The notes under the pieces were generated by a model. It saw only the letters and a program-made list of their open reading frames with translations, was not told the origin of the DNA and made no database searches. Made by a program: the position numbers and the translations under genes. Shown here in pieces: positions 11,769 through 15,761 of a stretch of 64,000 nucleotides of DNA; positions within the stretch are counted from its first letter, which is position 1; every line of letters starts with the position of its first letter. Source of the stretch: Polyangiaceae bacterium (GTDB lineage: Bacteria > Myxococcota_A > Polyangia > Polyangiales > Polyangiaceae); the NCBI GenBank assembly GCA_019637295.1, contig JAHBVX010000005.1, forward strand, positions 248,001-312,000. The letters run 5' to 3'.

Positions 11769-14099
11769 TCACGGTTCGGGTGTGTTCACGTACGCGACGT
11801 GGGGGCGGCACTGCTGCGCCCGAAGCGACGGACACGGTGGCAGCGGCGTGGTCACGGCCACGTCCGGCACGACGGACAACGCGAGGCTGGACGGCCGCGC
11901 GAGGTCGTGAGCCACGGAGTGGCGCGCGACCGTCGAGAACTTCTTCAGATCGAAGAACCACTCGGCCCGGCTGTCTCCCGGCGTGTCGATCGCGATACGA
12001 ATGCGTGAACCCGCTCGAAAGACGTGGCTCGCCGCCGTGAGCCCGACGCGCACGGCCACCCAGTCGCCAGGCACCAGCAGCGCCTCGTCCTCCAGGGTCT
12101 GGGTGTGCTCGGGCCACAGCTCCGTCGAGCTCGCCGCCAGCTTGCGCCGGCTGGCCCGGAGCCATCCGCTCTGCACGAAGACCTCTTGGCCGTCTGGGCG
12201 CACCTCGGACAGGTTCACCTCGAGATCCGCGTCGTCGACGTTGGAGCGCAGGAACAGATCGACGCTGCCCGAGCCCACCATCACCAGATCCTGCGGGAGC
12301 GGCGCGCCCTCGAACACCACCGCCTTGCCGGCCGCCGGTTGAGCCCACGCGTAGTTCGGCAATGGATCCCAAATCTGCCCGCCCGGCGCGAGGATGCCGC
12401 GCTGCCCGGCCTCTGGGTCCAGCTCGAACACGCTCGCCGCGGTGGCGACGGCTGGCGGCTCGTCGGCCAGGCTCCCATCCGGTTGAAAGTAGAAGCGCCG
12501 CGCGCTGGCCGACGGCGGCGGCCAACTCGCCCAGCTCTTCTCGAAGGTGCCCGCAGGCGCGCCGGCCTCGTCGCCCGCGCCATTCTCGAAGATGACTCGC
12601 AGGCTGGGCTCCGCCTCGAACAACGCTTTGGCGGCCTCGTAGCTGGGCACGTCCGCAAAGCGATCTTCCGGGAACGACAGCTCCGTCTTGAACACCTCCT
12701 TGAACAGCAGCGGTGCCAGGGTGGTGAGTGTCGCCTCCATGCTGGGCTTGGCGCGCTTGACGTAGATGTCGAGGAACGCCTTCCACTCGGCGAGCACCTG
12801 CGGCGCGAAGCCATCCGGGTGAACGCCGTTGTACACGGTGAAGCGCTTGACCGGCGCGTTGTCGAAGCGGCTCAGCAGGTTGAAGCAGTACGGTCCCGTC
12901 TGCTCGTCCTGCCAGGAGCAAGCCAAGAACACCGGCACCTCGATGTCACTGGCGAACAGTGAGGGATTGACGGGATCGGCGACCTCGGCGGAGTAGTACG
13001 GGTTGTCCCGCGCCTTCTGGATGACGTCCACGCGCTGGTCGTGCAAGAGCTGATTCTCTTCACAGATGGTGTCACCGGCGTCGACGCGAGCTTGCTCCCA
13101 GCCCTGGGCGTAAGGCGCGGCCTTGGACAGCACGTTGGTGACCCACTGGATCGCGAAGCCATCATTCAGGATCCCACCCGGCACCAGGGTGGTGTGTGCG
13201 CTGCCGATCACGGACAGCGGCGTGATCGCGGCCAAGCTGGGCGGCTGCATCTTGGCGACGAACAGCTGCGAGATGCCCGGGTACGACAGCCCCGTCATGC
13301 CCACGTGGTTGTGCAGCACCCAGTCTTGCGCAGCGACGATCTCGATCACGTCGTAGCCATCGAGCAACTGCAGCGGCTCGAAGAAGTCGTAGGCGCCGCC
13401 CGAGCAGCCGGTGCCGCGCATGTTCACCCCCACGGTCGCGTAGCCCATGAGCGCGCCGATGAGCGCGCTGGCGTCATCCGGCGCGTCGCAAAGCACCGGC
13501 AGCGCGCCGCAGAACGCCTCGTAGTCCCCGAGCTTGGCTCCCGGCTTGGCTGGGCTGTAGCCCGAGTAGTTGACGATCGTCGGGTACGGGCCCTGCTCCG
13601 GAGGTCCGGGCAACGTGATGTAGGCGGCCAGCGTCGTGCCGTCGCGCATCGTCAAGTAGTTGACGCCGGCGGTCAGCTGCTGCTGAGCGTAAAAGCTCTG
13701 ATCGGGCTTGCTGGTCCCGAAGCCCAGGATCGTGACCGGCGCGGTCACGTTACTTGGATCGCTCTGCTCGCGCACGGCGTATCCGCCCCCTGGCGTTATC
13801 CCGCGCAGCACGAGGCTGCCGAGCGGGTCGGCCTTGCCGGACGCGACGACCTGTCCCGAGTCGTCGGCGACCTCGATGATGGTCCCGGGCACGGCGTGGG
13901 TCACGTACACCTGCTCGACCGTTCCGCGCACGGAGAAGCTCGCCTGCGAAGGCGCGCCCCCCGTACCGCCCGCGCCGCCCGCTGCGCGGCCGAAGTCTTC
14001 GTCCTGACCGCAGCCGAAGGTGGTGAATACCGCCGCGAGCGCCAGTAGTCGGATCGGGACGTCGTAGCGAGCGTGAGCGAGGAGGCGACGAGCAGGCAT
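11769..14099 (-). CDS. CocE/NonD-type serine hydrolase, lipoprotein
   Basis: 776 residues from ATG 14099 (a TTG 39 bases upstream is less likely). A signal peptide ends at lipobox Cys30 (TTFGC), then a Gly-rich linker and an N-terminal beta domain (residues ~45-130). The central alpha/beta-hydrolase of the X-Pro dipeptidyl-peptidase S15/CocE family has its catalytic triad in the expected order: Ser272 (GLSYPGIS), Asp398 (WQDEQTGPY) and His427 (GVHPDGF). The C-terminal jelly-roll typical of the family is visible (LEVNLSEVRPDGQEV, RIRIAIDTPGDSRAEW). It should hydrolyse esters, amides or proline peptides at the cell surface; the actual substrate cannot be told. Some 46 bases separate it from the redoxin-like gene upstream. 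Confidence 0.85.
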   Translation of the reverse strand: MPARRLLAHARYDVPIRLLALAAVFTTFGCGQDEDFGRAAGGAGGTGGAPSQASFSVRGTVEQVYVTHAVPGTIIEVADDSGQVVASGKADPLGSLVLRGITPGGGYAVREQSDPSNVTAPVTILGFGTSKPDQSFYAQQQLTAGVNYLTMRDGTTLAAYITLPGPPEQGPYPTIVNYSGYSPAKPGAKLGDYEAFCGALPVLCDAPDDASALIGALMGYATVGVNMRGTGCSGGAYDFFEPLQLLDGYDVIEIVAAQDWVLHNHVGMTGLSYPGISQLFVAKMQPPSLAAITPLSVIGSAHTTLVPGGILNDGFAIQWVTNVLSKAAPYAQGWEQARVDAGDTICEENQLLHDQRVDVIQKARDNPYYSAEVADPVNPSLFASDIEVPVFLACSWQDEQTGPYCFNLLSRFDNAPVKRFTVYNGVHPDGFAPQVLAEWKAFLDIYVKRAKPSMEATLTTLAPLLFKEVFKTELSFPEDRFADVPSYEAAKALFEAEPSLRVIFENGAGDEAGAPAGTFEKSWASWPPPSASARRFYFQPDGSLADEPPAVATAASVFELDPEAGQRGILAPGGQIWDPLPNYAWAQPAAGKAVVFEGAPLPQDLVMVGSGSVDLFLRSNVDDADLEVNLSEVRPDGQEVFVQSGWLRASRRKLAASSTELWPEHTQTLEDEALLVPGDWVAVRVGLTAASHVFRAGSRIRIAIDTPGDSRAEWFFDLKKFSTVARHSVAHDLARPSSLALSVVPDVAVTTPLPPCPSLRAQQCRPHVAYVNTPEP

Positions 14100-14145
14100 C
14101 AGGGACGACACTGTGCAGGCGGACGGCCCGGCTCGCAAGCCGGAT

Positions 14146-14865
14146 TCACGGCCCCAGCAGCGTCATCAGCTCGTCGAGCCCTGCGTCGGCGCTCGACGGC
14201 TGGCTGCCGTCGTAGCTGCCGAAGCCCTTCCACACGATCTTCATCGTCTGCAGGTCCACCACGTACGTCCACTCCCGGCTCACCAGCGCGGCGAGGGTCT
14301 GGTCGTCTTTGGGCTTGACCACCGAGATGTGCAGATCCTCGCTCTTGATCCAGGCCACGAGATCGCCGCTGTACAGCACGTCGACGACGACCCCACCCGC
14401 CTCGACCGCTTGCTTTCCCTTCGCACCGAAGACCTCGGCTGCCTTCTTACAGCCGGGTCAAGCGCTCAGGCTGACGTGAATCAGCCCGTACTTCTTTCCG
14501 CTCTTGCGCATGCCGTCGGTGCCGTAGTCGACGTAGGGTTTGGTGTCGCTCGGCGCGTCCGCCGTCTCGTTCACGTACCCCTCCCAGGCGAGGTTCGCGA
14601 TGGTGTCGCCCACGGCGTTGCCGTAGGGGCCCGCTGGGTAGTCGGCGCTGACGCCGCCGCTGCCGAGCCCGCCGCTGCCCGCGCCCGACGAACCACCGGA
14701 GGAGAGCCCGCCGCTGCCGCCCGCTGCGAGCCCGCCGCTGCCGCCCGACGCGAGGCCACCGCTGCCGGCGCTGCCTCCCGCGTCGTCCGAGCCGCAGGCG
14801 AGTAGAGCGAGGGACAGACTCGCGCCGAGCACGACGGCGATGGCAGACAGAGCGAGGGATCTCAT
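14146..14865 (-). CDS. Redoxin-like lipoprotein, probable selenoprotein (UGA = Sec136)
   Basis: Reading from ATG 14865 gives a lipobox (LALLAC), a (G/S/A)n linker and a redoxin-type N-terminal region (YPAGPYGNAVGDTIANLAWEGY) that stops at a TGA at 14458-14460 right after a beta-strand (KKYGLIHVSLSA). The same frame continues without any other stop for 103 more codons: PGCKKAAEVFG, then strands and helices of a thioredoxin fold, ending at a TGA at 14146. The UGA falls exactly where the first redox cysteine of C-x-x-C belongs, giving U-P-G-C. A SECIS-like hairpin follows (14423-14442). The lipobox and fold suggest a periplasmic peroxidase, reductase or thiol oxidoreductase. It overlaps the gene upstream by ATGA. 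No selA/B/C/D gene is in this window, so decoding is inferred. Confidence 0.82.
14423..14442 (-). promoter_or_regulatory. Bacterial SECIS-like hairpin just after the in-frame UGA
   Basis: On the coding strand, 15 bases after the UGA, GCA-(bulged G)-CCGA pairs with UCGG-UGC around a five-base loop GGUCU, giving seven base pairs. The loop is identical to that of the E. coli fdhF SECIS. Its first G is 24 bases from the UGA, inside the 16-37 base distance described for bacterial SECIS elements. SelB would bind it to recruit Sec-tRNA. The pairing was found by eye. Confidence 0.75.
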
Positions 14866-15761
14866 GGTGCGACGCGAACCCCGACCCACGTAAGGTACTC
14901 GATCCCTTCGCCCGGATCCATCTCGATCCGAGCGCCGTCGGCGCTCACGGCGCCGGTCGCGACCACGTCGAAGGTGGCGGGCTCGACCCAGTCCGGGAAC
15001 AAGTAGCTGCCGAGGGCGAGCCACTGCACCTTCGTACCTGCAGCGAGCTCGGAGCTCACGATGCTCAAGCGAACCTTGGCCGGCGCGCCGCCCTCGTCCT
15101 GGAACGCCGCTTCGAACGGGGCGAAGGCCACCAACAGCTCGAGGCCCAGGGCCGTGTCAGCGAACGCGCCCTGCGCAGACATGGGCACCCGCAGCGCCCG
15201 AAACTGCTTCCCGGGTTCGCCCAAAGTGATGTCCTCGACGTCGATCTTCACGAACACGCCTTCGGGCACCTCGAGGGTGACGCCCGAGCTCACGACGGTT
15301 TGCGCGGGCGTACCGAGCTTGTCACTCTTCACGACCAGCGCCGGGCCCGCGGCTGGCAGCTCCAGCAGAAGCAGCTCGCCCACGTCCACCGCACCCTCGG
15401 CGTCGAGCGGGAGGCGCCGATAGAAATTGGTGTGCGCGGGTCGGCCGTGAACGAACACCGAGTACAGCGCCGGCCTGAGCCGTACGCCGACCGGGACGTC
15501 GAAGGCCCCGGCGTCGCTCGTCTCGCCATAGAAGCACACCGGCCCGCACACGCTGACCAGCGCGGCCGCCGCCGGGCTGCCGTCCCCGAGCGCCGCCGTG
15601 CCGCTCACCGCCGCGATGCAGCGCGCGTCGGGCGATAAATCGCCCTCGCTGCAAGGCGCGCTGCCGGCGCTGCCGCCGGCGCCGCCGCCAGGCGCTGGCT
15701 CTCCGGCGCCGCACGCGAGCGTCACGAGCCAGCTGGCGACGAGCCAACGCGAGCGCCTCAT
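14862..15761 (-). CDS. Lipoprotein upstream of, and coupled to, the selenoprotein gene
   Basis: 299 residues with a signal ending in lipobox VTLAC (Cys17). A Gly-rich linker is followed by a CPC-less but Cys-containing beta-sandwich: residues 45-115 look like a carboxypeptidase-regulatory/SdrD-type fold (VSGTAALGDGSPAAAALVSVCGPVCFYGETSDAGAFDVPVG), with the pattern GxVFVHGRPAH following. The C-terminal half is also all-beta. No enzymatic motif. Its stop overlaps the ATG of the redoxin-like gene by four bases, so the two are probably made together and may act at the same site in the periplasm or outer membrane. Confidence 0.7.
   Translation of the reverse strand: MRRSRWLVASWLVTLACGAGEPAPGGGAGGSAGSAPCSEGDLSPDARCIAAVSGTAALGDGSPAAAALVSVCGPVCFYGETSDAGAFDVPVGVRLRPALYSVFVHGRPAHTNFYRRLPLDAEGAVDVGELLLLELPAAGPALVVKSDKLGTPAQTVVSSGVTLEVPEGVFVKIDVEDITLGEPGKQFRALRVPMSAQGAFADTALGLELLVAFAPFEAAFQDEGGAPAKVRLSIVSSELAAGTKVQWLALGSYLFPDWVEPATFDVVATGAVSADGARIEMDPGEGIEYLTWVGVRVAP

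Follow-up and report, generated by a model that had tools for sequence, protein, structure and literature searches.

A putative envelope-anchored thioredoxin-fold selenoprotein with a U-x-x-C active site in a Polyangiaceae genome

Reading frame and conservation of the in-frame UGA

The minus strand of the window (the whole stretch of DNA analyzed here, 64,000 nucleotides from a Polyangiaceae bacterium) holds a lipoprotein-like reading frame with a TGA codon inside a redoxin-type active site, which raises the question of whether this codon ends the protein or is read as selenocysteine (Sec). Our results favor the latter: with a probability of roughly 0.92, the gene encodes an exported, lipid-anchored thioredoxin-fold selenoprotein redox enzyme, here called Sec-redoxin, whose Sec insertion, export and redox chemistry are computational predictions. 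The original prediction described a minus-strand frame that starts at 14865, meets a TGA at 14460-14458, remains open for 103 further sense codons and ends at 14146, and all of these particulars were confirmed. The gene (14146-14865, minus strand, as are all features below) would encode 239 residues with Sec at position 136, and its terminal TGA is at 14148-14146; codon 136 is the sole stop within this frame. The protein is predicted to begin with a signal peptide that extends through an LLAC lipobox at residues 21-24 and ends at Cys24 (14794-14865), both read by eye only, followed by a Gly/Ser-rich linker, a YPAGPYG motif and then the redox domain. The in-frame UGA (14458-14460) lies within the segment LIHVSLSA-U-P-G-C-KKAAEVFG, in which the codon for Cys139 (14449-14451) supplies the second half of the U-P-G-C motif. 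Ordinary gene calling is expected to break genes of this type at the UGA.

To assess coding after the TGA, we compared this region with its counterparts at loci L011-L013. Differences at the first, second and third codon positions numbered 20/11/41, 26/19/45 and 24/19/39, respectively, with dN of 0.17-0.25 and dS of 0.73-0.94, and both the excess at third positions and these rates indicate that the second half of the gene is coding. Values for the more distant L014 (dN 0.51, dS 0.56) were uninformative. Third-position GC content was 0.90 after the TGA and 0.88 before it.

Relatives were sought in 97 genomes (the window's own and related genomes) at an E-value threshold of 0.001, and some Sec-redoxin match was found in 47 of them. 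Internal TGA codons were present at 24 loci from 14 genomes, the window included, and at every one of these loci the TGA encodes the first residue of a U-x-x-C motif, a recurrence in one alignment column that argues against chance. A profile search of 377 genomes of the phylum contributed at least 12 further TGA loci, and 11 of the 12 listed have the codon in the same column. Combined, the matches listed comprise 36 internal-TGA loci in 18 genomes; at 35 of them the TGA occupies the first place of U-x-x-C, and 35 likewise have Cys at the position of Cys139. This use of UGA at the same site among relatives suggests a true selenoprotein family and not a defective gene. The UGA had also been proposed to take the place of the redox-active first cysteine of U-P-G-C, and in agreement with this, all eight aligned relatives that lack the TGA (L016, L025-L030 and L032) have Cys at position 136. 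Other no-TGA rows of the 97-genome search were left out of the alignment because several of them span the Gly-rich linker only. Locus L051 is absent from the protein alignment (A1), in which its start motif was not found, and is present in the DNA alignment (A2). Altogether, among the matches listed, position 136 was Sec-TGA at 35 and Cys at 9 of 44 loci, the outcome that the original prediction had looked for in homologs.

At the ninth Cys locus, L135 (G385:C705), the TGA lies one codon upstream of position 136, directly preceding an intact CGPC motif in the place of the usual Trp, so that at least one TGA codon in this family is not a Sec site of the U136 type. A sequencing error, a pseudogene or a U-C-x-x-C site could each account for L135. 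The TAA codons of L137-L139 are terminal stops, none of them internal. One genome, G066, carries six Sec-form paralogues among the matches listed (L017, L042, L048, L132, L133 and L136), and the motifs found among them are UPGC, UGGC, UGIC and UGAC. All 23 named records of relatives are titled metagenome-assembled genomes, mostly assigned to Myxococcales, Polyangiaceae or Deltaproteobacteria.

Selenocysteine machinery and the downstream hairpin

The full four-gene set for Sec synthesis and insertion was sought in the window genome alone, where selA, selB, selC and selD, the genes named for this check in the original prediction, were all found. SelA was matched with an E-value of 4.4e-114, SelB with 272 bits (cut-off 242), tRNA-Sec with 70 bits (cut-off 47) and, by ARAGORN, an anticodon of TCA, and SelD with 309 bits. 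The selD gene of this genome (L060; G000:C12:904961-905884) contains an in-frame TGA of its own, within the motif GGGUARK, and its product is therefore probably a selenoprotein as well.

SelA was matched in 13 of the 14 TGA-form genomes vs. 20 of the 83 others in the 97-genome set (Fisher p = 1.3e-6). The exception, G073, yielded no SelA match, and its SelB and tRNA-Sec were above their cut-offs. With the phylum search added, 17 of the 18 TGA-form genomes have SelA among the matches listed, and the remaining one has SelB and tRNA-Sec. In the 377-genome set the association is weak, because SelA is common there: it was matched in at least 246 genomes, including 14 of 15 TGA-form genomes among the matches listed (p = 0.024). 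Among eight genomes whose only clear forms are Cys forms, SelA was matched in one. In G034, which carries a Cys-for-Sec version of a related operon (L016), no SelA match was found.

The original prediction also included a hairpin with a GGUCU loop downstream of the UGA. Such a bSECIS-like hairpin is present at 14423-14442, with its apical loop at 14434-14430, 23 nt after the UGA and with a folding energy of -8.0 kcal/mol. According to the portion of a recent selenoprotein catalogue that describes it, the bSECIS model has a loop of 3-9 nt with G in its first two positions, lies 16-37 nt past the UGA and has a minimum free energy of -7.5 or below (PMC13188914); the window hairpin agrees with this model in its 5-nt loop, its distance and its energy. 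The element is nevertheless unremarkable when judged from the window alone, where it is no stronger than synonymous shuffles (fraction 0.53) and competes with another, stronger hairpin that begins within the UGA and forms the minimum-energy fold of the region.

Support for a putative bSECIS function comes instead from the relatives, in which the hairpin is mostly positioned 21-24 bases after the UGA. Over the 60 bases from the UGA, the alignment of the 24 loci is free of gaps, and in the protein alignment some of them have a three-codon insertion just past the stem. When a seven-pair stem was scored over these loci in the register of the majority (the group that includes the window pairs one base over), 83.9% of the cells were paired; slid controls gave 32-45%, and shuffles 79.2%, with none of 500 reaching the observed value. 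Two-sided changes were found at four of the seven stem pairs, vs. 1.8 for shuffles, of which 15 in 500 had as many. The loop-proximal stem of the window group covaries in its own register, with CCGA/UCGG vs. CCCA/UGGG around a GGUCU or GGUCC loop. These two scored registers fit 28 of the 36 listed loci, and eight fit neither. Hairpin strength relative to synonymous shuffles had a mean z of -1.04 at the 24 Sec loci vs. +0.56 at seven Cys loci (p = 2.5e-5; L025 could not be scored), a control that is imperfect because the Cys loci are more distant. A search of Rfam gave a single sub-threshold match, to PtaRNA1 (21.2 bits vs. 47; E 0.16), adjacent to the TGA, which was treated as a chance match.

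A coupled four-cysteine lipoprotein and a proposed mechanism

Immediately upstream of Sec-redoxin is a gene for a 299-residue lipoprotein with an HGRP motif (14862-15761), the stop codon of which shares the four bases ATGA (14862-14865) with the Sec-redoxin start. Among 13 aligned partners, Cys 37, 48, 72 and 76 (window numbering) are invariant, and the last two form a CGxxC motif. By tblastn, 12 of the 24 Sec loci, counting that of the window, have a partner relative upstream, as does the Cys locus L016 of G034; at another Cys locus, L032, the partner relative is downstream instead. Some partners may have been missed in this count because the locus sequences reach only about 1-1.5 kb upstream. 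Of the 13 loci, seven besides the window have a start that allows the 4-base overlap, L016 has an ATG 3 bases past the partner stop, and the lipobox search gave no start for L019, L022, L023 and L046. In the phylum set, 29 of the 74 listed partner matches are followed on their own strand by a listed redoxin match no more than 1 kb downstream, and the partner is so placed for 12 of the 32 listed TGA rows; the order of the two genes is reversed in G073:C25 and G042:C79. In either tally, a recognized adjacent partner is missing from at least half of the Sec loci.

The best 50 Foldseek rows for the partner contained only weak or partial matches, to teneurin, carboxypeptidase D and cohesin-type domains, with TM scores of 0.12-0.26 by query length. 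A CarboxypepD_reg match (E 0.1 or better) was found in 6 of the 13 partners, not including that of the window, and the partner fold is recognized only as a CarboxypepD_reg-like part in these six.

Other neighbors were also observed. The window gene at 11769-14138 (minus strand) encodes a lipoprotein-like protein with Peptidase_S15 and PepX_C domains, which is 63% identical to a 781-residue stretch on the Sec-redoxin contig of G001 (same genus), about 5 kb from the Sec-redoxin gene. The paralogues L024 (UGSC) and L044 (UPAC) share a different upstream frame, which by eye resembles a 2OG-Fe oxygenase, and have no four-Cys partner. A plasmid search gave no match.

We propose that SelB and tRNA-Sec would read the UGA at codon 136 as selenocysteine, assisted by the hairpin located approximately 21-24 bases downstream. 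The product would be anchored in the cell envelope, where Sec136 would attack and Cys139 would resolve, and the U-x-x-C motif points to thiol-disulfide exchange as the most likely reaction. The translationally coupled four-Cys lipoprotein might be a redox partner or client of Sec-redoxin, a suggestion that we offer tentatively. Equally speculative is a broader scheme in which the overlapping pair acts as an envelope module devoted to selenium: one lipoprotein, as a Sec reductase or isomerase, would keep the four Cys residues of its client in the right redox state, with Cys pairs being more widespread across the phylum and Sec having been adopted in lineages with Sec machinery and then duplicated to as many as six copies.

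Fold, alternative readings and likeness to known systems

AlphaFold2 modeling of the linker-free thioredoxin-fold domain (14640-14149) gave a mean pLDDT of 97 and a pTM of 0.92. The best Foldseek matches of this domain were ResA, CcmG and AhpC-type chains, and the best 50 rows of VIA-align contained peroxiredoxins, ResA-type proteins and one deiodinase, with Z scores of 14.4-15.6 that are tied within about 1. When the A1 profile was compared with the PDB, ResA was the best match (E 2.1e-6 for 1st9 and 3.2e-7 for the CPHC variant). No model of Pfam or NCBIfam matched the window Sec-redoxin; among 31 members of the family, the Pfam models AhpC-TSA (PF00578) and Redoxin (PF08534) matched 18, weakly, and one, respectively.

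Proteins of the TlpA/ResA type are marked by a Trp before C-x-x-C and by a cis-Pro that faces the active site. A Trp precedes the active site at 6 of the 36 listed TGA loci (1 of 24 and 5 of 12) and at 7 of 8 Cys loci; the window protein has Ala. In the column of the ResA cis-Pro, Pro was found at none of the 24 Sec loci, at 1 of the 12 further listed TGA loci (L135) and at 3 of the 8 Cys loci. Most sequences have E or D in this column (Glu in the window), and a basic residue precedes it at every one of the 24 aligned Sec loci (23 R and one K). Besides the two motif positions, no further invariant or near-invariant His or Cys was observed in the aligned domain. Because Trp and cis-Pro are mostly missing from the TGA loci, thiol-disulfide exchange is not certain, and other readings have to be weighed.

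That the UGA is a real stop, created by sequencing error, left in a pseudogene or ending a deliberate 135-residue lipoprotein, is very improbable. The first half is by itself an open frame that ends at the TGA; against this, the same codon is TGA at 35 of the 36 listed internal-TGA loci in 18 genomes, the sequence past it is under purifying selection relative to L011-L013, and SelA, or SelB together with tRNA-Sec, was matched in 18 of 18 genomes among the matches listed. Pseudogene and sequencing error were rejected on the conservation of the TGA and the selection after it. General recoding of TGA was also considered unlikely, because all three stop codons, TGA included, occur at the ends of the aligned relatives. 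If the gene does encode a genuine selenoprotein, it might chiefly reduce peroxides or other oxidants, with a peroxidatic Sec and Cys139 as the resolving residue. This role, which we consider unlikely, would be consistent with the many peroxiredoxins that tie with ResA among the structural neighbors, with the AhpC-TSA matches in 18 of 31 members, and with the loss of Pro from the cis-Pro column at 24 of 24 Sec loci, each with R (23) or K (1) just before it. Peroxiredoxins have a characteristic Arg; the Arg before the lost cis-Pro was considered as its equivalent and set back, as the ResA alignment places it one residue away from the cis-Pro column. Moreover, a common fold does not show function, and here Sec is the first residue of U-x-x-C, so that Sec rather than Thr stands three before Cys. 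The available catalogue table gives TxxU for Sec peroxiredoxins (PMC13188914), and the TxxC/TxxU motif of peroxiredoxins thus differs from the UxxC of Sec-redoxin.

A further alternative is metal or metalloid binding by Sec and Cys in the envelope, instead of redox catalysis. The cis-Pro suppresses metal binding in thioredoxin-fold proteins, and its column is without Pro at all 24 aligned Sec loci; in the part of the catalogue at hand, predicted metal binding is noted for many Sec families (PMC13188914). However, the aligned domain offers no other invariant or near-invariant His or Cys as a ligand, and we regard this role as improbable, less so than a real stop and more so than a peroxidase. 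A thioredoxin-fold redox protein is the reading we prefer for Sec-redoxin, and we do not file it as a member of TlpA/ResA.

A full-text literature search found, among the papers it covered and by the titles listed, no study on the selenoproteins of Myxococcota or myxobacteria. Sec-redoxin appears to represent a selenoprotein family that faces the envelope and is absent from the catalogue, and 35 Sec sites in one column from 18 genomes belong to it among the matches listed. The natural Sec/Cys pairs of the related operon (window genome vs. G034) could be used to ask what benefit selenium brings to an exported thiol enzyme, for which the four-Cys lipoprotein is a specific candidate client. The claim that the protein falls outside the standard annotated selenoprotein families held as far as tested: no model of Pfam or NCBIfam matched the window protein, and in the accessible text of the 2026 catalogue paper, myxo-, polyangi- and lipoprotein are nowhere mentioned (PMC13188914). 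The catalogued UxxC families of the redoxin type might nevertheless include Sec-redoxin, and Sec-redoxin would therefore be new as a family or variant but not as a kind. The catalogue table is stated to comprise 119 selenoprotein families or subfamilies, among which the UxxC thioredoxin-fold entries include a Prx-like thiol:disulfide oxidoreductase (PF00578), a Redoxin family protein (PF08534; representative HEU0032618.1) and a thiol-disulfide isomerase-like protein (cd02966) (PMC13188914). The comparison of Sec-redoxin with these entries is one of descriptions and Pfam matches. The NCBIfam model NF041054 (WAxxUGC_long) is by name ResA-like with Sec, yet its Sec is in WAxxUGC rather than UxxC; it matched one of the 31 members (E 0.0019), not the window protein. 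Sec-redoxin shares the fold and the C-x-x-C spacing of the ResA/TlpA/CcmG-type oxidoreductases, of which ResA is its best PDB profile match, whereas these proteins have Cys where Sec-redoxin has Sec, and Trp is lacking at 30 and cis-Pro at 35 of the 36 listed TGA loci. The catalogued UxxC selenoproteins, in the portion of the catalogue available, likewise have Sec as the first residue of UxxC within a thioredoxin-type domain (PMC13188914).
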